Below are positions 9,219 to 22,502 of a DNA stretch of 64,000 nucleotides, piece after piece. Below the pieces are notes generated by a model. It saw only the letters and a list, made by a program, of their open reading frames with translations, was not told the DNA's origin and searched no databases. The DNA comes from an uncultured delta proteobacterium. Lineage in GTDB: Bacteria > Myxococcota_A > Polyangia > Polyangiales > Polyangiaceae. The first letter of the stretch is position 1. Each line of letters begins with the position of its first letter. The stretch covers positions 62,001-126,000 of the forward strand of contig CAIVJW010000132.1 in NCBI GenBank assembly GCA_903906315.1. The letters run 5' to 3'. Both the position numbers and the translations under genes were made by a program.

Positions 9219-10736
9219 GTGGCGAGCACGAACGGGGCCGTGAGCGGGCGACAGGTCGAGGCGCAGGCGCACGTCGGGGAGGCGGCCGCGCCGCTCAAGT
9301 ACGTCGTCGAGGAGGAGAACCGCGCGCTCGTCGGGGCGATCGGTCGGCCGCGGCGCGTGCTCGACGTCGGCTGCGGCGTCGGGCTGAACGGCGCCGCCGC
9401 GAAGCGCAAGGGCGCCCGCGTGACGGGCATCGAGATCGCGAGCCAGACCGCCGACCGCGCGCGGCAGGTGCTCGACGAGGTGCTCCCCATCGACATCACG
9501 AGCGATGCGTCGGTCGAGCAGGGCCTCGCCGGGCGCACGTTCGACCTGATGCTCTTCGGCGACGTCCTCGAGCACGTCGTCGACCCGGCCGCCGTGCTGC
9601 GGCGCCTGCTCGCGTACCTCGAGCCGGAGGGTCACGCGATCGTGTCGCTGCCCAACGTCGCCGCGTGGACGGTGCGGCTCGGGATGATCGGCGGCAAGTT
9701 CGAGTACGAGCAGAGCGGGATCCTCGACAGCACCCACCTGCGGTTCTTCACGCGCGACACGGCGCAGGGGCTCTGCGAAGCGGTCGGCCTCGAGGTGCTG
9801 CGCGTCGAGCTGAACCCGATGCTCGTCCGCGCGGCGAAGAAGCTCATCCTGAGCACGTACATCGACACGCGCTCGGGCGAGCCGCTCGACCCGACGCTGC
9901 TGCGCACGACGCTCTCGTACAAGGCCTACCAGGCGATCCTCCGCCCCCTCGAGGACCTCGTCGCCGAGCGCGCGCCCGGCCTGCTCGCCTTCCAGAACGT
10001 GATCGTCGCCCGCAAGCCGCCCGTGGCGCGCAAGCTCTCGCTCACCGTCGGCATGCTGACGATGGACGAGGAGGAGAGCGTCGCCGCGATGATCGGCGAG
10101 ATCCGCCGCGTCGCCCCCGACGCGCAGATCCTCTGCGTCGACAGCTCGATGAAGGACAACACGCCGCAAATCGCCGAGAAGCTCGGCGCGCGCGTGCTGC
10201 GGCAGGTGCCCCCGCGCGGCCACGGGCCGGCGATGGAGCTGCTGATGTACGAGGCGGCCGCCCAGAGCGATCTGCTGATCTACCTCGACTGCGACTTCAC
10301 CTACCCGGTCGACATGATCCCGGTGATCCGCACGATGGCCGAGGACGAGCGCGTCGACGTCGTGAACTGCGCGCGCACGCGCCGCAAGCCGACGGCGATG
10401 CCGGTGCCGAACTTCCTCGCGAACCGCGGCTTCGCGGCGCTCGCTCACGCGATGCACGGCATCCCGACCTGCGACGTGCACAGCGGCATGCGTGCGTACC
10501 GCAGCTCGGTCATCCGCGCGTTCGAGTTCGACGGCGAGGGCGACGCGCTGCCGATCGACACGCTCCTCTTCCCCGCGAAGAGCGGCTACCGCGTGGTCGA
10601 GCTGCCCATCGCGTACAATGAGCGCGTCGGCGCGTCGAAGCTGCGCAAGCTCGCCGGTACGGTGTGGACGTTCATCCGGCTGGCGCGCGCGCTGCCGGTC
10701 GGTCGCCGGCTCGGCGACCACTACGACGTGCGCTGA
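9219..10736 (+). CDS. Methyltransferase fused to a GT2 glycosyltransferase
   Basis: 505 residues with two domains. The N-terminal ~250 residues are a class I methyltransferase, with VLDVGCGVG at 47-55 and LFGDVLEHVVDP as the post-I motif. From about 269 on is a dolichol-phosphate-mannose-synthase-like GT2 domain. It has TVGMLTMDEEES at its first strand, CVDSSMKDNT near 305, the metal-binding YLDCDF with D357-x-D359, and AYNERVGASKL near the end. The fusion implies coupled sugar transfer and methylation of one product, perhaps a lipid-linked sugar. No membrane segment is evident. It closes the plus-strand glycan cassette. The GTG start is supported by the -10-like box just upstream. Confidence 0.82.
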   Translation: MASTNGAVSGRQVEAQAHVGEAAAPLKYVVEEENRALVGAIGRPRRVLDVGCGVGLNGAAAKRKGARVTGIEIASQTADRARQVLDEVLPIDITSDASVEQGLAGRTFDLMLFGDVLEHVVDPAAVLRRLLAYLEPEGHAIVSLPNVAAWTVRLGMIGGKFEYEQSGILDSTHLRFFTRDTAQGLCEAVGLEVLRVELNPMLVRAAKKLILSTYIDTRSGEPLDPTLLRTTLSYKAYQAILRPLEDLVAERAPGLLAFQNVIVARKPPVARKLSLTVGMLTMDEEESVAAMIGEIRRVAPDAQILCVDSSMKDNTPQIAEKLGARVLRQVPPRGHGPAMELLMYEAAAQSDLLIYLDCDFTYPVDMIPVIRTMAEDERVDVVNCARTRRKPTAMPVPNFLANRGFAALAHAMHGIPTCDVHSGMRAYRSSVIRAFEFDGEGDALPIDTLLFPAKSGYRVVELPIAYNERVGASKLRKLAGTVWTFIRLARALPVGRRLGDHYDVR

Positions 10737-10749
10737 AGCGAGCCGCGCG

Positions 10750-13179
10750 TCAGTCGCCGGGCGCGGGCGTCGCCGCGCGCCTCTGATCGGGCTCGGAGGA
10801 GCCGCCGGCGAGCGGCGCGATGGCTCCGAACGCCGCCGCCGCCAGGGCGGCGAGGCCGAGGAAGCCGACGTGCACGACGAGCAGCGACCCGAGGCCGATC
10901 GCGACGGTCTGGCCGAGCAGGTGGAGCCCGAACGCGGCCGCTGCGCCGCCGGGCCGGGCGCGGGCCGCCTGCCCCAGTAGAAGCGGCAACATCGCGCCAA
11001 TCGGGAGCGAGGCCACGGCGATTACGATCAGCGCGGCGAGGACCCGCGCGGGCATTGGCGCGCCGGAGAGCGCGCGCGCGAGCGGCCCGAGCGACAGCCC
11101 GCCGGCGAGGAGGAGCACCGATCCGGCGACGGCCAGGTGCGACGCGAGCCTGGCGTGGGCGGGTGGCCCGGCGTCCTCGTCGACGAGGAGCGCGCCGACC
11201 GCGAGCCCGGCGGAGACCGCAGGCACCACGAAGAGCAGCGCGAACACCGGGTGGCCGAGCGCTGCCGTGAGCCAGCGCCCGAGGAGCGCCTCCAGGCCGG
11301 CGGCGCCGACGCCGAGCAACCCCGCCGCGACGAGCGCCCCAGCGCCCGCGGGTCGATGGTTCGGGGCGCCGCCGCGCGGCCGCGCGAACCGCGCCGCGAC
11401 GAGGAAGGCCAGGAGGCCGGCGACGCCGACGACGAAGGGCAGTCGCTCGCCGGGGTGCGATGCGATCGCCCCGAGGGTCGGTGCGGCGGCCGCGGCGAAC
11501 GGTCGGTCGTCGGTCGCCACGTCGGACGGACCGAGCGGACGGAGCGGAGCCGGCGGCGCGGTGGCTGCGGGCGGCGCCGGACGTCCGATCGTGGAGGGGG
11601 CCGCGGCGGACGCGGCGGCCGGGAGTCGCTCGCCGGCGAGGCGCCGCGCGAGGTCGCTCCGGGGCTGGTCCGGGGCGAACAGCTCGAGGAGCTTTGCCTT
11701 CTGGCAGTGGGCACGCAGCGCGCGCACCTCGGTCGGCGAGAGCGGGGTCTTGCGCGCGAGCACGGCCGAGGCTTCCTTGCCGCCGCACGCGAACAGGTGC
11801 GCGACCGGCTCGCTCGCGCCCCCGGCTCGGAGCGCGCCGAGGATCGATACGGCGAGGCGCTCCGGGTCCGCGCCGGTGCGCACCACGATCGCGCCGCCTG
11901 GCGCGAGCCGCGCGAGGTCGTCGGCGATCGCCTCGCGCGTCGAGAGGCTCGCGTCCGCGATCGCGATCGCGCCCCCGGCGCGAGGCCACACGATCAACGG
12001 CACCTCGGTCGACTGGGCCGCCGAGACGACCAGCAGGTGCAGGTCGCCGGCCGCCCCTCGCACCTCGGCTCGCCCGTCGCCGATCCGCGTCCGCACGCGC
12101 GCGTCGCCGTAGACGGGCGCCCCGAACGCCTTCAGCGCGCCTTCCGTCAGCTCCTCCGACAGCGCGACCCCTCCGACGACGCAGGCGAGCTCTTCTTGCC
12201 CCGCCTTGAGCGCCGCGCGCGCCGTCCGCCCGCCGCCGACGGGGTCGACGACGAGCGTCGGCCCCCTCTCCGGCGCGAACGCGAACGCGAGGTCCTCCGG
12301 CTCCGCGGGCGGGTTGCCGCGCCCGTCGACCGCCACGCTGCGCCGGACCCCGTCGACGCGGAGGGAAGAGACGCCGCCCTGCGGTCGGTCCGCCGTGAGC
12401 AGCCCGAGCTCGCTCCAGCGGTGGACCTCGATCTTGTCGGGAATCCCGACGCGGGCGGCCTTGAGCTTGAGCCACGGCGCGCCCACGTCGCCGGCGAGCA
12501 GGACCAGGCTGCCGACCACGGCGGTCGCCGCGAGCGAGAGGTCGGTCGCGGACGGGAGGTGGTCCGGGTCGTGCGGAGGCGCGGGCTCGGACGCAGCGCG
12601 CGCACGGGAGGCGGCGGTCAGCGCGGCAGACGCGACGCCGAAGACCACGGCGGCGAGCAGCACGGCTCGCGGAGCCCCCGCGCGGACGGCGAGGACCCCC
12701 ACGACGGTGCCACCGGCAGCCCCGCCCGCGAGCGCGAACGCGGCAGGCCCGAGCCACCCGCCCACGGCCCGCAGCGCGCCGCCCGTGGCCGCGCCGCCGA
12801 ACGCGAACGGAAGCGCGGCGCAGACGGCGAGGAGCAGCGCTTCGCCCCGGGACCGCCCGGCCAGCGCGGCGACCTCCGCGACCGGCGCGGCGACCTTCGA
12901 GTCGCTCACGTGGAGCGTGACCATGATGGCTGCCACCGACAGAGCCGCCGCCACCTCGGCCAGAACGGCGACCGCCGGGCGCGCGCGGTCCGAGGCGAGC
13001 GCGGCCGCCGCCAACGCCCCGAGCGCACCGGCCGCGAGCGCGATCGGTGCGACCGCGAAAGCGGCCTCCGGCCCGAGCACGACCGCGGCGACCCGCGTGA
13101 GCCCGAGCTCGAGGACCACCACCGCCGCGGCGAGGGCTGCCAGCCCGGCGAACAGGCTTCGGCGTTCCGTCGCGCTCAT
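10750..13179 (-). CDS. Spermidine-synthase-like multi-pass membrane protein
   Basis: 809 residues. Two hydrophobic blocks (about residues 1-230 and 580-790, each with six or so helices) flank a soluble region. The soluble region holds a Rossmann-like segment VVDPVGGGRTARAALKAG followed by GDARVRTRIGDGRAEV. The layout matches membrane proteins fused to a spermidine-synthase fold. The usual acidic SAM ligand after the second strand is not evident (CVVGGVALSEE there), so the methylthioadenosine chemistry may be lost. An Ala/Pro-rich linker lies at about 500-560. The ATG at 13179 was preferred over an upstream in-frame start because a GATACCGT box lies just before it. Its end lies 13 bases from the convergent GT2 fusion gene. 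Confidence 0.68.
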   Translation of the reverse strand: MSATERRSLFAGLAALAAAVVVLELGLTRVAAVVLGPEAAFAVAPIALAAGALGALAAAALASDRARPAVAVLAEVAAALSVAAIMVTLHVSDSKVAAPVAEVAALAGRSRGEALLLAVCAALPFAFGGAATGGALRAVGGWLGPAAFALAGGAAGGTVVGVLAVRAGAPRAVLLAAVVFGVASAALTAASRARAASEPAPPHDPDHLPSATDLSLAATAVVGSLVLLAGDVGAPWLKLKAARVGIPDKIEVHRWSELGLLTADRPQGGVSSLRVDGVRRSVAVDGRGNPPAEPEDLAFAFAPERGPTLVVDPVGGGRTARAALKAGQEELACVVGGVALSEELTEGALKAFGAPVYGDARVRTRIGDGRAEVRGAAGDLHLLVVSAAQSTEVPLIVWPRAGGAIAIADASLSTREAIADDLARLAPGGAIVVRTGADPERLAVSILGALRAGGASEPVAHLFACGGKEASAVLARKTPLSPTEVRALRAHCQKAKLLELFAPDQPRSDLARRLAGERLPAAASAAAPSTIGRPAPPAATAPPAPLRPLGPSDVATDDRPFAAAAAPTLGAIASHPGERLPFVVGVAGLLAFLVAARFARPRGGAPNHRPAGAGALVAAGLLGVGAAGLEALLGRWLTAALGHPVFALLFVVPAVSAGLAVGALLVDEDAGPPAHARLASHLAVAGSVLLLAGGLSLGPLARALSGAPMPARVLAALIVIAVASLPIGAMLPLLLGQAARARPGGAAAAFGLHLLGQTVAIGLGSLLVVHVGFLGLAALAAAAFGAIAPLAGGSSEPDQRRAATPAPGD

Positions 13180-13665
13180 CCGGCCGACGGTATCGCCTCC
13201 CCGCAGACGCGAAGTCAACCGCGCTCGCGCGATGCCCGGGACGAGGTCTCTAAAGATGGCAATAAATGCTAGGTTATACGTGTATTTGTGGCGAATACTT
13301 CATGCGGAACAAGCGATCGCTGGGTAGCGGTCGTGCGCAGCTCCCGGCCGCCTTTGATCCGTGCCTGAAGATCACCTGAAAACGAATGGTTGGGCTTCAT
13401 AGCTCATCCTGTGTCGAGCTCGCTGGACGGCGAGGGTAGGGCGGCGACCGCTCGTCGTCCCTCCCCCTCGGGTTCCACGGCCCGCCCCTCGCCCGGGGGG
13501 CCGGTCGGCCACCGCTCCGCGGGCGCGGTGCCCGGCCAGCGCTCGGTGCGCCTTCGGGTTGGCTCGGCGGCGCGAACGCCCGCCCGTCGCGGTCGCGCCT
13601 CGCCGTCGGCCGCCCGCTCGCAGCGGACTTGGCCCGCGACGCTCAGCTCTGGCAAGCGCAGCGCG
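13180..13665. other. Intergenic region with an AT-rich island
   Basis: 486 bases lie between divergent genes. Positions 13251-13300 are about two-thirds A+T, far from the surrounding composition, and 13377-13412 is also only moderately GC. No ORF with convincing codon use, no repeat ends and no tRNA are seen. On the minus strand TTGACT (13213-13218) lies 18 bases from GATACC, a plausible promoter for the membrane protein. The AT-rich island may hold the promoter of the transpeptidase-like gene. Confidence 0.5.
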
Positions 13666-15237
13666 ATGCCTACCGTCCGCTCGGCCCGCGCGACCTCGGC
13701 CGCGGGGCTCCTGGTGCTCCTCGTGGCCGGCGCCGTCGGCTGCAAGAAGGGCGAAGCCTCGCCTGCGCTCTCGAAGGACCGTTCGGCCGACGACGGCCCG
13801 CTGAAGGTGCCCGTTCCGCCGGAGAACGGCCCGAAGCTCGCCGTCCTCCGCGCCGGCGTGACCGTCCTCGCGCGCCCGTCGCGAGGCGCGAAGCGGGTCG
13901 GCGAGCTCGCCCTCGGGGCCCACGTCGCCCGCTCCGTCGAGCCCTACGGGAAGGCCGACTGCGACGCGGGCTGGTACGCGGTGCGCCCGGCCGGCTTCGT
14001 CTGCGTGTCCTCGGGCGTCGCGCTCGACGCGGCGACCGCTCGGGACGTGCCCCGCCCGCTCGACCTCGCGCACGCCCTGCCCTACCGCTACGGTCGCGCC
14101 CGCGCCGACGGCGTGCCGCTCTACGCGCGCCCTCCGTCGTTCGACGAGCAGCGGAGCGCCGAGGCCGATCTCACGCGGCACCTCGCGCGCGGCGAGGAGC
14201 GCGACCCGCTCGGGGCGGCCGCGACGGACGTGCCCCTCGACGCACGCGGCGTCGCCAGCGGGCCACCCGTCCTGCTCCCGGCGAGCGACGGGGTGGGCGC
14301 CGACGGTCGCCGGACGGCGTCCTCGTACTTCACCTTCCCCGGCGGCCCCACGCCTGCGGCCCCGCGCGGGCCCGCGGCGCCCGACGAGAAGCTCACGCTG
14401 GGCACGTTGCGCAGGGGGGGCGGCGTCGCCCTCGTCGACAGCGTCGTCGTCGAGAGCGGCCCCGCCGCGCGGCGCTTCGGCGTGACGCCCGACGGCCGCT
14501 TCGTCCCGGTCGACCGCCTGCGGCCCGCGCTCGGTGCGACGTGGCACGGCCTCGACGTCGACAAGATCGGCCTCCCCGTGGCCTTCGTGCACAAGCTCGG
14601 CGTGCACACCTTCGCGCTCGGCGGCGGCAAGGCGCACAAGAACGACGACGAGGTCGAGCGTCGGGCCGCGGTGCCGCTGTCCGGCAAGTTCCGGACGGTC
14701 GAGGGCGTACGCTTCGAGCAGACGCGCGACGGCGCGTGGCTGCGCGCGCAGGACCTCGTGGTCGTCATCAAGCGGACCAAGTTTCCCGAGGTCGCGCGCG
14801 CCTCGCAGAAGTGGATCGACGTCAGCGTCGCGAACCAGACGCTGACCGCCTACGAGGGCAAGAAGCCCGTCTACGTGACGCTCGTCTCGACTGGCCGCGA
14901 CCAGCTCTCCGACAAGCCGGAGGCCGCCGTGACCGCTCGCGGCACCTTCCGCGTCCGCGCCAAGCACGTGGCGCGCACCCCCGACGCGCGCGAGGTGCAC
15001 GGCTCCTTCGAGATCCCGGACGCGCCCTGGGCCCTCGAGCTTGAGTCCGGCAACGCGATCACGGGCGCCTACTGGACCGACGGGGTCGGCGAAGCGGCCG
15101 GCTTCCACGACGTCGTCCTGACGCCCATCGACGCGCACCGGCTCTTCACCTGGTCCGACCCGCAGCTCCCCGTCGGCTGGTCCAGCGTGGAAGATGACGG
15201 CGCGGGGGACGGCACGGTGGTCGTCGTTCGTCCCTGA
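13666..15237 (+). CDS. L,D-transpeptidase-like (YkuD) lipoprotein, catalytic residues missing
   Basis: 523 residues from the ATG at 13666. A lipoprotein signal ends in LLVAGAVGC, so the mature protein is probably lipid-anchored. An SH3-like part (about residues 60-125) precedes a long middle region, and the C-terminal ~140 residues align with YkuD domains. In active relatives the core reads YWHD...SHGCVNL...PxDAxxLFxW. Here the same framework reads YWTD (469-472), GFHDVVL (479-485) and PIDAHRLFTW. Thus the His, the SHG and the nucleophilic Cys are replaced, with D482 at the Cys position. The fold is probably kept for peptidoglycan binding or scaffolding rather than cross-linking. The alignment is from memory of the family, not computed. 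Confidence 0.78.
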   Translation: MPTVRSARATSAAGLLVLLVAGAVGCKKGEASPALSKDRSADDGPLKVPVPPENGPKLAVLRAGVTVLARPSRGAKRVGELALGAHVARSVEPYGKADCDAGWYAVRPAGFVCVSSGVALDAATARDVPRPLDLAHALPYRYGRARADGVPLYARPPSFDEQRSAEADLTRHLARGEERDPLGAAATDVPLDARGVASGPPVLLPASDGVGADGRRTASSYFTFPGGPTPAAPRGPAAPDEKLTLGTLRRGGGVALVDSVVVESGPAARRFGVTPDGRFVPVDRLRPALGATWHGLDVDKIGLPVAFVHKLGVHTFALGGGKAHKNDDEVERRAAVPLSGKFRTVEGVRFEQTRDGAWLRAQDLVVVIKRTKFPEVARASQKWIDVSVANQTLTAYEGKKPVYVTLVSTGRDQLSDKPEAAVTARGTFRVRAKHVARTPDAREVHGSFEIPDAPWALELESGNAITGAYWTDGVGEAAGFHDVVLTPIDAHRLFTWSDPQLPVGWSSVEDDGAGDGTVVVVRP

Positions 15238-15473: not shown

Positions 15474-15550
15474 TGGTGCCGAAGGAGGGACTCGAACCCC
15501 CGACCCGGCGCGTATGAAACGCCTGCTCTAGCCAGCTGAGCTACTTCGGC
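15474..15550 (-). tRNA. tRNA-Met (anticodon CAT, elongator type)
   Basis: A complete cloverleaf reads on the minus strand. The acceptor stem is GCCGAAG/CTTCGGC, the D arm GCTC/GAGC, the anticodon stem GGCGT/GCGCC with loop TTCATAC (anticodon CAT), and the T arm GGGGG/CCCTC with TTCGAGT. The terminal CCA is encoded. A paired first base (G1-C72) and the lack of three consecutive GC pairs next to the anticodon argue against the initiator. tRNA-Ile2 is less likely because positions 4-5 are G-A rather than C-C. Confidence 0.88.
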
Positions 15551-15695: not shown

Positions 15696-17054
15696 CTACG
15701 GGTCCGAGCCGGGGGGCGGTCGCCCGGCGCCCTTTGGCCGCACCGCCGGGTTGCGGGCCTCGAACGCGATGGCGAGCCGGAAGGTCGGGCCGAGCTCCCC
15801 CGGCAGCGGCCCGAACGGCGCAGCGATCTGCGCGGCGCGCTGGCAGTTGGCGTCGAACTCGGGGATGCCGCTCGGACGCGAGACGGCCGCGCTCGCGAGC
15901 GTCCCGTCGGCGAGGATCGAAAGCAGGACGACGACCGTGCCCTGCCGTCCCTCCGCGATGGCCCACTTCGGGAATGCGTCGGCCCACAGCGGGTGGATCT
16001 TCGCCCGCACGGCGCGCTCGTAGCCGATGCGCCGCGGGTCGTTCCGCGCGTCGTCGAGGCCGCTGCCCCGCCCCGTGCCGAGCGCGTGCGACGCCGACCC
16101 GGGCCCGGCCTCGCCCCCCGAGGCCGGCGCGCCCGGGCCGCGCTGCCCGCCGACGCCCTTCCCCGACGCGCCCCCGGCGGTGCTCGCGTGCAGGATCGAC
16201 TGCATCCGCGTCGCGACCTCCTGCTCGCTGTCGAGCGTGTCGGCGGGCTTGCCCTGCTTCGACGACGGTACCGAAGGCGTGCCTTCCTCGGTCTGCGGCC
16301 GCGCGTGCGGAACGGCGGCGCTGACTCGGTGGTCACGTCCCGCGCGCCCATCGCGCACGCCGATCCCATCGGTCGCTCGCTCCATGCCGAGCGTGTCGCT
16401 CCCGGGCGTGCGGGGGCTCTCGCCGACCCCGGGCGGCAGCTCGGCGGCCCCGAGCGCCCCACCCCGCGCCGTCGGTTCTCCGCTCGACCCTCCACCGGCC
16501 GACGGGTCGGTCGCGGCCGCCGGCCTGCGCTCTGGCCGCGTGCCCGTGAAGCCCTGCGCGAGGAACGTCAGCTCCATCGGCTCGCGGCTCGCGCGCCAGT
16601 TCTCCCGGGCCGCCCGTGCGCGTGCGGTCCGGATGCGCTGGATCTGGCTGCGGTCCAGCCGCGACAGCGCGGCGTCCCCGAGCAGGATCCCATCGTCCTG
16701 ATCGGCGAGGTTCAGCGCCGGCTCCGTCGACGTGTCCGTCCCGCCGCGGCCCGGTCTCCCGGTGTCCGGCCGCGGCGTCGCCTCGCCTCCCCCACGCGCC
16801 GGCGCGACGGGCTCCGTGCTGGCCGCCGGCTTCGCCTCGGGGGAGCTCGCGGTCGCCATGGACGGCAGCTCGACCTCGACGGTGTCGTCGCCGAGCGTCG
16901 CCACCGCGGCAGCGCCCGAGGGCGTGGCGGCTCCCCGGCGCGTAGCCACGTGGTGCGCGACGACGAGGCCGCCCGCCGTGATGGCGGCGTGCGCGACGAC
17001 GGACAGGATCCACGCCGACACCAGTCGTCGACCTTCGCGTGTCGCTCGGGCCAT
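15696..17054 (-). CDS. TonB-family / AgmX-like C-terminal domain protein
   Basis: 452 residues. A single N-terminal membrane helix (about residues 12-34) is followed by ~300 residues of Pro/Ala/Gly-rich, low-complexity periplasmic sequence. A C-terminal TonB-like domain (about 345-440) contains RAKIHPLWADAFP, GTVVVLLSILADGT and PEFDANCQRAA. This is the layout of energy-transducing or adventurous-motility TonB-type proteins that span the periplasm. The start has an upstream GAGGACGAGGA purine tract and CATACT about 15 bases further up. It lies 136 bases downstream of the PrkA gene on the same strand. No ExbB/ExbD genes are in view, so its partner is unknown. Confidence 0.75.
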   Translation of the reverse strand: MARATREGRRLVSAWILSVVAHAAITAGGLVVAHHVATRRGAATPSGAAAVATLGDDTVEVELPSMATASSPEAKPAASTEPVAPARGGGEATPRPDTGRPGRGGTDTSTEPALNLADQDDGILLGDAALSRLDRSQIQRIRTARARAARENWRASREPMELTFLAQGFTGTRPERRPAAATDPSAGGGSSGEPTARGGALGAAELPPGVGESPRTPGSDTLGMERATDGIGVRDGRAGRDHRVSAAVPHARPQTEEGTPSVPSSKQGKPADTLDSEQEVATRMQSILHASTAGGASGKGVGGQRGPGAPASGGEAGPGSASHALGTGRGSGLDDARNDPRRIGYERAVRAKIHPLWADAFPKWAIAEGRQGTVVVLLSILADGTLASAAVSRPSGIPEFDANCQRAAQIAAPFGPLPGELGPTFRLAIAFEARNPAVRPKGAGRPPPGSDP

Positions 17055-17190: not shown

Positions 17191-19530
17191 TCAGGTCACC
17201 AGCTCGGCGAAGCGCGCGCGCAGGATGGCGCTCGCCGCGTCGAGCGCGCACGCGTCGCAGTACCCCATCGTCTGCAACCGCTCGAGCGCCGTGAGCGCGT
17301 TGCGCTTCTGCTCCTCGTGCAGCGTCGGCCGGCCGGCGTCGTCGATCGTGCCCTCCTGCCGGTCGCGCAGGAGGCTCACGAGGTCGCGCACCCCGAGCGC
17401 GACGGCCCGGCGTCGCTCGGCGAACACGGCCTCGCGCATCCGCTTCATCTGCTGCGGGAACACCACCGTGTTGACGATCTTCTCGCCGGGGTGGTCGATC
17501 GCCCACGCGGCGATCGTCGAGAAGAGCCCGCGGCGGTGGTCGTCGTGATTGGCGCGCACGCCGAGCAACGCCTCGACCTCGCGCATCAGGCGCTCGTCGG
17601 CGGGCTCGTGCTCACCGGTCACGGCGTTGCGGATCCGCTCCGCCTTCACCCACGTTCCCACGTGCGACACGTAGCGGTCGAAGAGCTCGGCGTACCGCGT
17701 CTCGTCCACCAGCCCGCTCGCCGTGCGCAGCTCCTCTTCGATGGTGTCGAGGAGCCTCGTGCGCACGACCTCGCGAAAGTGCGAGTGATCGTGGTAGCCG
17801 CCCGCGAGGGGTTTCTCCTGGAGCCAGTCGTACTCGGACGCGCGCAGGCAGAGCTCGTCGAGCTTGTCGAGCACGGCGAAGGGCGAGAGGCACGCGTGAT
17901 CGTGGCTCTGCGCCGCGTCGAGCAGGACCGTGCGCACCTCGCGCGGGGACACGCCGAGCCGTCCCTCGAAGTCCGCCGAAGAGTCGCTCTCGTGGTAGAG
18001 GAGCGCGATCCCGGCGCGCAGGACCTTCTGGGCGTCGGGATCGAGGCGATCGGGCGCGGCACCGGTCGCGAACAGGTCCAGCTTCTCGGCCGCGGTCAAC
18101 GAAGCCACGATGCGCGCGAGCGCGTCCGGGTAGCGCTTGGCCTCCGGCTGCCGCATCCGGGTCAGGATCGCGAACTGTGCCGCGACGCGGGTCGCGTGCG
18201 GGGCGACATGGCGCGTGACGAACGGGACGATCTGGCCGTCGTAGATGCGCTGCTCGTCGACCGCGCTCCGCAGGTACGGCGCGCGCACGAGCTCGAATCG
18301 CCCGCGGAAGCTCGGGAACTCGGGGTGCTCGCGGAACGCGGCGAGGTGCACCTCGTTGGCGCTGCCGATCATCACGACGTTGGTCTGCACGGTCTGCTGC
18401 TGGAGCGCGACCTCCCCCGTCTCGAGCGTGAGCTGCAGGTAGCGGAACGCTTCGAGCGGGCGCTTGAGCAGGTCGCTGAACTCGATGACGCCCCCCGCGG
18501 CCTCGACGAGCTCGCCGAACGCCTCGAAGAGCGTCGTGGCCTGGAGTGAGGTGGGCAGCGAGGCCAGCGAGCGGTCGGCGGTGATCTGTCGCTCGCGCGC
18601 GTCGACCGTGACCTCGGGGCCGAGCGTGACGGCGCCCTGGCGGTAGCGGCGCGAGACGAACCACCGCTCGACCTGCACGTGGCGGAGCGTTTCGGCGAGC
18701 GACCCGCCGTACGAGGCGAGGAGCGCCTCGAAGACCTGCTGGCTCTTGTGCGAGAGCTTGCCGTTCATCAGCCACTCGGGCGGCGGCTCGCGCGCGTCGC
18801 ACGTCGCCCAGAGGCGCTCGACGAGCACACGCCGCTCCGGGACGGGCAAGAGGAACAGCGGGTGGTCGCGAAGCTCCATCACGAGGCGAGCGTCGATCTG
18901 GTCCTCCGAGAGGTGCGCGAAGCTCGCCCCGCCCGAGCTCGCTTTCGTCACCGCGCCGAACCCGATCGCGCCGCGGACCGTCTTGCGACTGGGAAAGACC
19001 CAGTGAAAGCGGTAGAGCGCGCCCTCGTCGAGCGTCGAGTAGTGCTCGAGCGCGCGAAGGATGCATGCGGCGACGGTGCTCTTCGCGGACCCGTTCGGCC
19101 CGTGCATGAGCACGAGCCGGTTCGCGCGCCCTTCGCGCACGAAGTTCGACAGCGCGCGGTACACCTCGCCCTGCAGCTCCTCCTGGCCGACGAGCGCGAC
19201 GTCGCGCCCGTGGTAGCCGAGCCCAGGGGTCGAGGCCTCCTCCCACGGCAGGTCGAAGAGGCGGAACCGCGTGAGCTGCCCCCACGGTCGCGGCACCGTC
19301 TCCGTGCCGAAATGGTCGAACATGTCGCGCGCGTAGCGCGGAGCGTCCCGCCCATATCGGACCGGGTTCTGCGCGAACAGCTCGACGTACTGCTGGAAGG
19401 AAAGGACGCGGCGCCCCTCGCGGAAGCGCAGCTCCATCCCACCGGCGATGGTGTCGAGCTCCGAGAGCGCGAGGCGGACGCGACCCTCCGGGTCGCCAGC
19501 GGTCTTCGGCGCGTTTTCTCGGCTAGTCAC
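17191..19530 (-). CDS. prkA: PrkA-family serine protein kinase / AAA protein
   Basis: 779 residues, longer than the ~640 of the E. coli relative YeaG. The N-terminal half is the PrkA AAA-type domain: YVELFAQNP and YARDMFDHFG near the start, then the Walker A HGPNGSAKS at 143-151. Other blocks such as GSANEVHLAAF and FVTRHVAPHA are family-typical. The C-terminal part is helical and rich in charged residues. PrkA proteins respond to starvation or stress and phosphorylate serine residues in the cytoplasm. The GTG start lies seven bases after a TAGGCT box, suggesting a leaderless mRNA. The usual SpoVR and YeaH partners are not seen nearby. Confidence 0.85.
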   Translation of the reverse strand: MTSRENAPKTAGDPEGRVRLALSELDTIAGGMELRFREGRRVLSFQQYVELFAQNPVRYGRDAPRYARDMFDHFGTETVPRPWGQLTRFRLFDLPWEEASTPGLGYHGRDVALVGQEELQGEVYRALSNFVREGRANRLVLMHGPNGSAKSTVAACILRALEHYSTLDEGALYRFHWVFPSRKTVRGAIGFGAVTKASSGGASFAHLSEDQIDARLVMELRDHPLFLLPVPERRVLVERLWATCDAREPPPEWLMNGKLSHKSQQVFEALLASYGGSLAETLRHVQVERWFVSRRYRQGAVTLGPEVTVDARERQITADRSLASLPTSLQATTLFEAFGELVEAAGGVIEFSDLLKRPLEAFRYLQLTLETGEVALQQQTVQTNVVMIGSANEVHLAAFREHPEFPSFRGRFELVRAPYLRSAVDEQRIYDGQIVPFVTRHVAPHATRVAAQFAILTRMRQPEAKRYPDALARIVASLTAAEKLDLFATGAAPDRLDPDAQKVLRAGIALLYHESDSSADFEGRLGVSPREVRTVLLDAAQSHDHACLSPFAVLDKLDELCLRASEYDWLQEKPLAGGYHDHSHFREVVRTRLLDTIEEELRTASGLVDETRYAELFDRYVSHVGTWVKAERIRNAVTGEHEPADERLMREVEALLGVRANHDDHRRGLFSTIAAWAIDHPGEKIVNTVVFPQQMKRMREAVFAERRRAVALGVRDLVSLLRDRQEGTIDDAGRPTLHEEQKRNALTALERLQTMGYCDACALDAASAILRARFAELVT

Positions 19531-22225: not shown

Positions 22226-22428
22226 GTGCTCTTGTGCTCCTACGGGTGGACGGGGCAGCCCTCGGACGAGGCAGGCTGGCTCGGTTGGGGGGGCGTGCCC
22301 CGCCCCGGCGGTCGCTCGGGCAGGCCGCGCGAGGGTTCGGAGGTGATGGCGCGACGGCTCGGGCTGCGCGGCCCGGCGGGCTGGGCGCGGACGCCGTGAA
22401 GGCTGGTCGACGAGTGCGGTGATGCGGG

Positions 22429-22502
22429 TAGGCCCACCTGGGTTCGAACCAGGAACAGCCCGGTTATGAGCCGGGGGCTCTGACCGATTGAGCTATAGGC
22501 CC
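22429..22502 (-). tRNA. tRNA with CAT anticodon, probably tRNA-Ile(CAT) (tRNA-Ile2 type)
   Basis: On the minus strand the acceptor is GGGCCTA/TGGGCCT (with a G-U first pair), the D arm GCTC/GAGC, the anticodon stem CCCGG/CCGGG around loop CTCATAA, and the T arm CCTGG/CCAGG with TTCGAAC. The CCA end is not fully encoded (ACCC follows). The C4-G69 and C5-G68 pairs match the identity elements described for the lysidine-modifying enzyme TilS, which would make this the isoleucine tRNA that reads AUA. An elongator Met tRNA remains possible. Confidence 0.8.

Follow-up and report, generated by a model that had tools for sequence, protein, structure and literature searches.

The gene at positions 13,666–15,237 (+) of the window, i.e., of the whole 64,000-nucleotide stretch of Polyangiaceae DNA that was analyzed, raises the question of what becomes of an L,D-transpeptidase fold when its catalytic cysteine is gone. 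The product (523 aa, P0001) was matched to Pfam YkuD at 29.4 bits (cut-off 23.4), with the match confined to residues 382–482 and extending to profile position 104 of 146, and no NCBIfam match was obtained. In the sequence-only reading, the protein had been described as a lipoprotein with the YkuD frame preserved and the catalytic residues lost, possibly a murein-binding pseudoenzyme regulating an active paralogue. The motifs quoted there are present in register (YWTD at 469–472, GFHDVVL at 479–485, PIDAHRLFTW at 487–496, and LPVGW at 501–505), and the gene is uninterrupted as stated, containing no frameshift or stop.

The signal peptide and lipobox (13,666–13,743, +), likewise reported as intact, were read from the sequence as AVGC followed by KK, which predicts lipidation at Cys26 with Lys at +2. 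With a crude pattern, a clear lipobox was seen in 16 of 26 orthologous proteins of the same kind (type A, see below). Lys at +2 is reported to mark 8 of 12 inner-membrane lipoproteins in Myxococcus xanthus (PMC3222651). No membrane is assigned from the +2 residue here, since Lys occupies that position in 9/26 type-A proteins (crude pattern) and is not conserved.

The AlphaFold model of the whole protein had a pLDDT of 89.8, and a separate model of the SH3-like middle region (residues 44–378) reached 92.3. The first SH3-like domain (residues ~55–124; 13,828–14,037, +) was delimited from the model, VIA-align (Z ~7–8), and invariant columns, its Cys99 and Cys113 being invariant in A3. The second (residues ~299–369; 14,560–14,772, +) was aligned to the SH3-like domains of SlpA/SlpX and LytB at Z ~8. 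The similarity of these parts to bacterial and cell-wall-binding SH3-like domains (Z ~7–8) is moderate, as Z values below 8 may reflect a common arrangement according to the tool's own warning. Pfam SH3_3 matched 7 of the 63 members, and the window protein was not among the matches. The YkuD fold itself (residues 379–523; 14,800–15,234, +; pLDDT mostly >90) was superimposed on the nearest solved L,D-transpeptidases at VIA-align Z 15–17 and rmsd 1.6–2.9 Å. Only a single YkuD stretch was found in the protein with Pfam, and no tandem active YkuD domain is fused to it.

The catalytic core of this fold is dismantled (residues 466–485; 15,061–15,120, +). In a 2025 review, the YkuD motif is given as HG(S/T)...(S/T)XGC, with a triad of Cys, His, and a small residue (PMC12729407). 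For comparison, 34 Cys-bearing SH3-YkuD homologues were used, nine from the window's genome and 25 from relatives; such homologues (e.g., L008, L020–L042) align over all or most of the window protein at ~32–42% identity. Unlike the window protein, all 34 keep His466, His471, Ser479, Cys482, and Asn484, and His480 and Gly481 are found in 32/34 and 33/34, respectively. At columns 466, 471, 479, 480, 481, 482, and 484, the window protein has T, T, G, F, H, D, and V, so that the nucleophile Cys is replaced by Asp482 and the general-base His by Thr466. The earlier claim that four catalytic or near-catalytic residues had been lost was thus right about the loss and too low in its count, as seven conserved columns are changed, the general-base His included. 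A relocated thiol was rejected: the protein has three Cys residues only (26, 99, and 113), and none lies in the YkuD domain. Stray Cys residues were seen in 2/27 type-A and 3/30 type-B rows (for type B, see below), never in column 482.

Type A was defined by a search with a seven-sequence profile, in which matches of at least 539 bits are followed by a gap down to 476 bits; the next three loci below the gap (L097–L099, 476 bits) are Cys-bearing. Type A was found in 27 of the 108 genomes of the family, the window's own included, and Cys is absent from every one of these proteins. The 18 named type-A loci (L043–L060) come from Sorangium, Polyangium, Minicystis, Byssovorax, and other myxobacterial MAGs, and the same in-frame catalytic loss is seen in the named Sorangium, Polyangium, and Minicystis records. 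An active enzyme altered by a sequencing error or by a local mutation is refuted by these orthologues, since Cys and most catalytic columns were lost in frame in 27/27 type-A genomes; nothing was found in favor of this reading, and its probability is considered negligible. In one genome of genus g20 (G124, one contig), no type-A match above the 539-bit gap was obtained, and the five other g20 genomes listed have one, which suggests that the gene was recently lost in G124.

A second, shorter Cys-less type (type B, ~450 residues, with a motif like FGIEHGPGNIQLSP) was first found at seven loci together with type A. With a profile of the type-B loci, it was detected in 30 of the 108 family genomes, and Cys is absent from all 29 proteins in which the motif is covered; the remaining row (L126) stops short of the motif, and 29 of the 30 type-B rows were therefore scored. 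Taken together, types A and B occur in 57 of the 108 genomes and in 28 genera. Within the thresholds applied, the two types never occur together in a genome or a genus, and neither type was found in 51/108 genomes, which indicates that the gene is dispensable at the scale of the family. The profile searches scored 14–16 first-look candidates per genome, and the absences hold at those settings. With the type-B profile, nothing was found outside the family at E ≤ 1e-90 among 183 genomes of the order. A search with the window protein covered 22 genomes from the rest of the order, and the three loci read from its stronger matches (L037, L038, and L040) are all Cys-bearing.

Descent was addressed with a quick tree of 91 rows (27 type A, 30 type B, and the 34 Cys-bearing ones); two proteins of the window's genome that represent other YkuD types (L002 and L011) were left out of the trees. 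Types A and B form one side of a branch with SH-aLRT 100, and on the other side 34/34 keep the Cys. That the two types are joined merely by their shared damaged columns was rejected: the branch stayed at 100/99 with residue 440 onward (the catalytic half) left out, and the grouping is therefore no product of the damaged columns. That run came with a warning about two long rows that meet, both of them Cys-bearing (L003 and L006). The tree is unrooted, and Cys as the ancestral state rests on Cys being the rule in YkuD proteins. Of 30 genomes, 25 entered an rpoB tree (G065, G073, G027, and G002 gave no match, and G035 was too short). In it, the genera bearing type A and those bearing type B separate once, at 94/93; its two outgroup genomes did not group together. 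The simplest reading of these trees would be one orthologous lineage in which Cys was lost before the A/B split, with the gene disappearing afterwards from other family members. Two separate losses of Cys within the A + B clade would be a less simple account.

Selection was estimated by the Nei-Gojobori method in 33 close pairs (15 Polyangium, 10 Sorangium, and 8 others). dN/dS was 0.03–0.34 for the YkuD domain in 33/33 pairs and 0.05–0.36 for the N-terminal half; the values are rough owing to the codon bias at high G+C, and none is near 1. No stops were found inside the matches in any of the 27 type-A or 30 type-B sequences. The data support retention of the gene under purifying selection. 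A relaxed, decaying duplicate heading to a pseudogene would account for the lost catalytic residues and for the 51 family genomes in which neither type was found, but with dN/dS below 0.35 in all YkuD-domain pairs, no stops inside the matches, and presence in 28 genera, this is regarded as very improbable. The proposal of a pseudoenzyme was strengthened by the same results, as no orthologue that was read keeps the Cys (27/27 type A, 29/29 type B); the loss of activity is predicted from the residues.

The two types differ in how far the core has changed. In both, changes are found at 12 columns whose residues the Cys-bearing rows conserve (413, 438, 439, 450, 451, 453, 458, 463, 479, 480, 482, and 484). 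The catalytic His at 466 is kept in 19/29 type-B proteins and His471 in 28/29; in type A, column 466 reads T20 A3 V3 H1, so that 1/27 keeps the catalytic His, and His471 is kept in 2/27. An apparent order of loss emerges from these columns: Cys482, Ser479, His480, and Asn484 are altered in both types, and on top of these most type-A proteins have also lost the catalytic His. In type A, 10/13 conserved core columns are altered as against 10/45 in the rest of the YkuD domain (Fisher p = 0.0005), and in type B 5/13 as against 16/45 (p = 1), with no concentration in the core; the core limits for this test (466–484) were the authors' choice.

Besides losses, type A has a gain, His481, which is invariant (27/27), and a near-invariant Glu476 (26/27). 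Conservation of Asp482, which the sequence-only reading had suggested checking in orthologues, did not hold: column 482 is divided among D9, A9, and N9 in type A, a functional Asp482 was rejected on this variation, and the invariant new residue is His481. Tyr458, present in 32/34 Cys-bearing homologues, is replaced by Glu or Asp in type A (25/27) and by Glu in type B (25/29). These residues are what a neo-functionalised enzyme could draw on, with another nucleophile or a His/acid pair (His481, Glu476, Glu458) set on the YkuD scaffold, and for a YafK-type YkuD protein, Ser-dependent turnover of beta-lactams has been reported, the Cys being dispensable (PMC13400389). Such an enzyme is nevertheless considered quite improbable. 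Type B has G27 at column 481 and I21/V7 at column 476 and does not share His481 and Glu476, hence no common new catalytic set exists in the core across the lineage; no conserved new Ser or Thr was seen in the core either, as residue 466 varies among Thr, Ala, Val, and His.

The other YkuD genes are relevant as possible partners. In the window's genome, 12 Pfam YkuD matches were found, and the 11 others all keep the Cys, two SH3-YkuD copies in the His-less forms SAGC and SAEC. All 13 family genomes in the YkuD survey have YkuD matches (not every one was read). Cys loss was sought among the weak matches of relatives and was not found, 20/20 keeping it (SAGC 5, SGGC 5, SAEC 1, SHGC 7, MTGC 1, THGC 1); these 20 were chosen by the authors and include all 18 at ≤54.8 bits that belong neither to the window's genome nor to types A and B. 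The reach of this control is limited: in the same survey, Pfam listed the type-A or type-B gene in three of the seven carrier genomes (G000, G003, and G006) and missed it in four (G002, G005, G007, and G009), and further decayed copies may likewise have escaped it. As a separate observation, the His of SHGC is replaced by Ala or Gly with the Cys kept (SAGC, SGGC, SAEC) in L009 and L012 of the window's genome, which pair at 100 in the tree, and in L156–L163, L171, L172, and L175 of relatives.

Downstream of the gene, a tRNA-Met (15,474–15,550, −; ARAGORN) lies between it and a convergent neighbor with a TonB C-terminal domain (15,696–17,054, −; Pfam TonB_C, 39.9 bits), followed by a PrkA-type serine kinase gene (17,191–19,530, −; Pfam PrkA, 165.8 bits). 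The TonB-C gene was found in 13/18 and the kinase gene in 12/18 named type-A loci; some of the loci where they are absent are cut by contig ends, and in Minicystis (L043) neither was found within 10 kb. As these neighbors are on the opposite strand, the Cys-less YkuD gene probably has a transcript of its own. In the seven named type-B loci, the TonB-C and PrkA neighbors were not seen; relatives of the MTHFR gene of L067 were found in 5/7 and of its Mur ligase gene in 6/7 (L067 counted; not always adjacent). A gene context common to A and B, considered as proof of orthology, was not found. Elsewhere in the window, a second tRNA-Met gene (both have the anticodon CAT) lies ~7 kb from the first on the same strand (22,427–22,502, −), and a single open frame with methyltransferase and family-2 glycosyltransferase domains was seen at 9,219–10,736 (+). 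Upstream of the YkuD gene, an 822-aa frame (10,750–13,218, −) has long hydrophobic stretches by eye; it gave no Pfam match at E 0.001 and no match of at least 120 bits in the 28 named loci.

For the cell wall, regulators that are pseudoenzymes are already known among LytM-fold proteins. A dedicated regulator of this sort, pairing with one active YkuD paralogue and switching it on or off as inactive LytM proteins do, would have its candidate partners among the 11 Cys-bearing YkuD proteins of the window's genome, and regulation of an active paralogue, as proposed earlier, is possible. Precedents come from another fold: Helicobacter pylori Csd2, with incomplete metal ligands, forms a heterodimer with Csd1 (PMC5053510), and degenerate LytM factors regulate amidases (PMC8416486). 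Against it, no linkage to a paralogue was seen, the type-A neighbors (tRNA-Met, TonB-C, and PrkA kinase genes) being convergent and pointing to no partner, and the genes near type B are instead those for MTHFR and a Mur ligase. A dedicated regulator is regarded as a possible, if rather unlikely, explanation.

What is left of the groove bears on binding. Met439, Tyr458, and Tyr463, conserved in Cys-bearing homologues, are altered in both types, so the groove is not wholly kept. Trp470 is kept in 25/27 type-A and 23/29 type-B proteins. Its counterpart in the alignment with LdtMt1 is the Trp of HSAPW, which we take to correspond to Trp340 of LdtMt2. According to the review, Trp340 of LdtMt2 is among the residues positioning the substrate (PMC12729407). 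Murein binding, suggested by the modeled pair of SH3-like domains and by the retained Trp470, is plausible.

The best explanation, held with moderate confidence, is that the protein is a secreted wall-binding YkuD pseudoenzyme lipoprotein descended from the SH3-YkuD L,D-transpeptidases of Polyangiaceae, with a putative role as tether or scaffold. The data support a single loss of Cys from an ancestor of that kind, before the A/B split, and vertical inheritance under purifying selection; the YkuD fold is preserved, as is part of the substrate groove. Cys-based L,D-transpeptidation would be impossible for a Cys-less protein. The lipid would hold it to a membrane, and the SH3-like domains and the unreactive YkuD groove would bind peptidoglycan non-covalently. 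In this way, it could serve as a scaffold or tether for the wall, and it may position active YkuD paralogues, shield them, or compete with them. That a YkuD protein can have a role apart from catalysis has a precedent in LdtJ of Acinetobacter baumannii, for which growth and shape are reported to be preserved by the C390S mutant as well as by the YkuD deletion (PMC12548408). A more far-reaching version, which is speculative and unlikely, would see in types A and B a dedicated non-covalent peptidoglycan receptor anchoring or sensing the wall in much of Polyangiaceae, with His481 and Glu476 of type A as a new groove ligand or as thiol-free chemistry. A stand-alone lineage in 57 of 108 genomes would allow the role of the transpeptidase fold to be tested apart from catalysis, and it is a warning that a Pfam YkuD match above the cut-off is not always an enzyme.

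In the open-licence literature, no stand-alone Cys-less YkuD lineage was found. The fold is common to the window protein and LdtMt1, LdtMt2, Bacillus subtilis YkuD, and Enterococcus faecium Ldtfm (Z 15–17 for the nearest rows), whereas the window lineage has neither the catalytic Cys nor (S/T)XGC, and the His is gone in 26/27 type-A proteins. The DpaA/YafK amidases are described as YkuD-fold proteins that have also departed from transpeptidation, but Cys dependence is reported for them (PMC13400389), and the YkuD domain of the window protein has no Cys. EnvC and NlpD (degenerate LytM), as well as H. pylori Csd2, offer a parallel in that the fold of a wall enzyme is kept, the active site is lost, and the role is non-catalytic; they differ in having an unrelated fold and known partners. 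The closest published case, and the one report of a Cys-less YkuD domain that the literature searches turned up, is the second YkuD domain of Pseudomonas aeruginosa LdtPae1 (LdtPae11, motif QLGKIR), which is likewise Cys-less and for which its authors also suggest peptidoglycan binding (PMC10434034). In LdtPae1, the Cys-less copy is fused in tandem behind an active domain, an architecture found by its authors in no other LDT (PMC10434034), while the gene described here encodes a stand-alone lipoprotein of a separate lineage, most of whose type-A members have lost the catalytic His as well.
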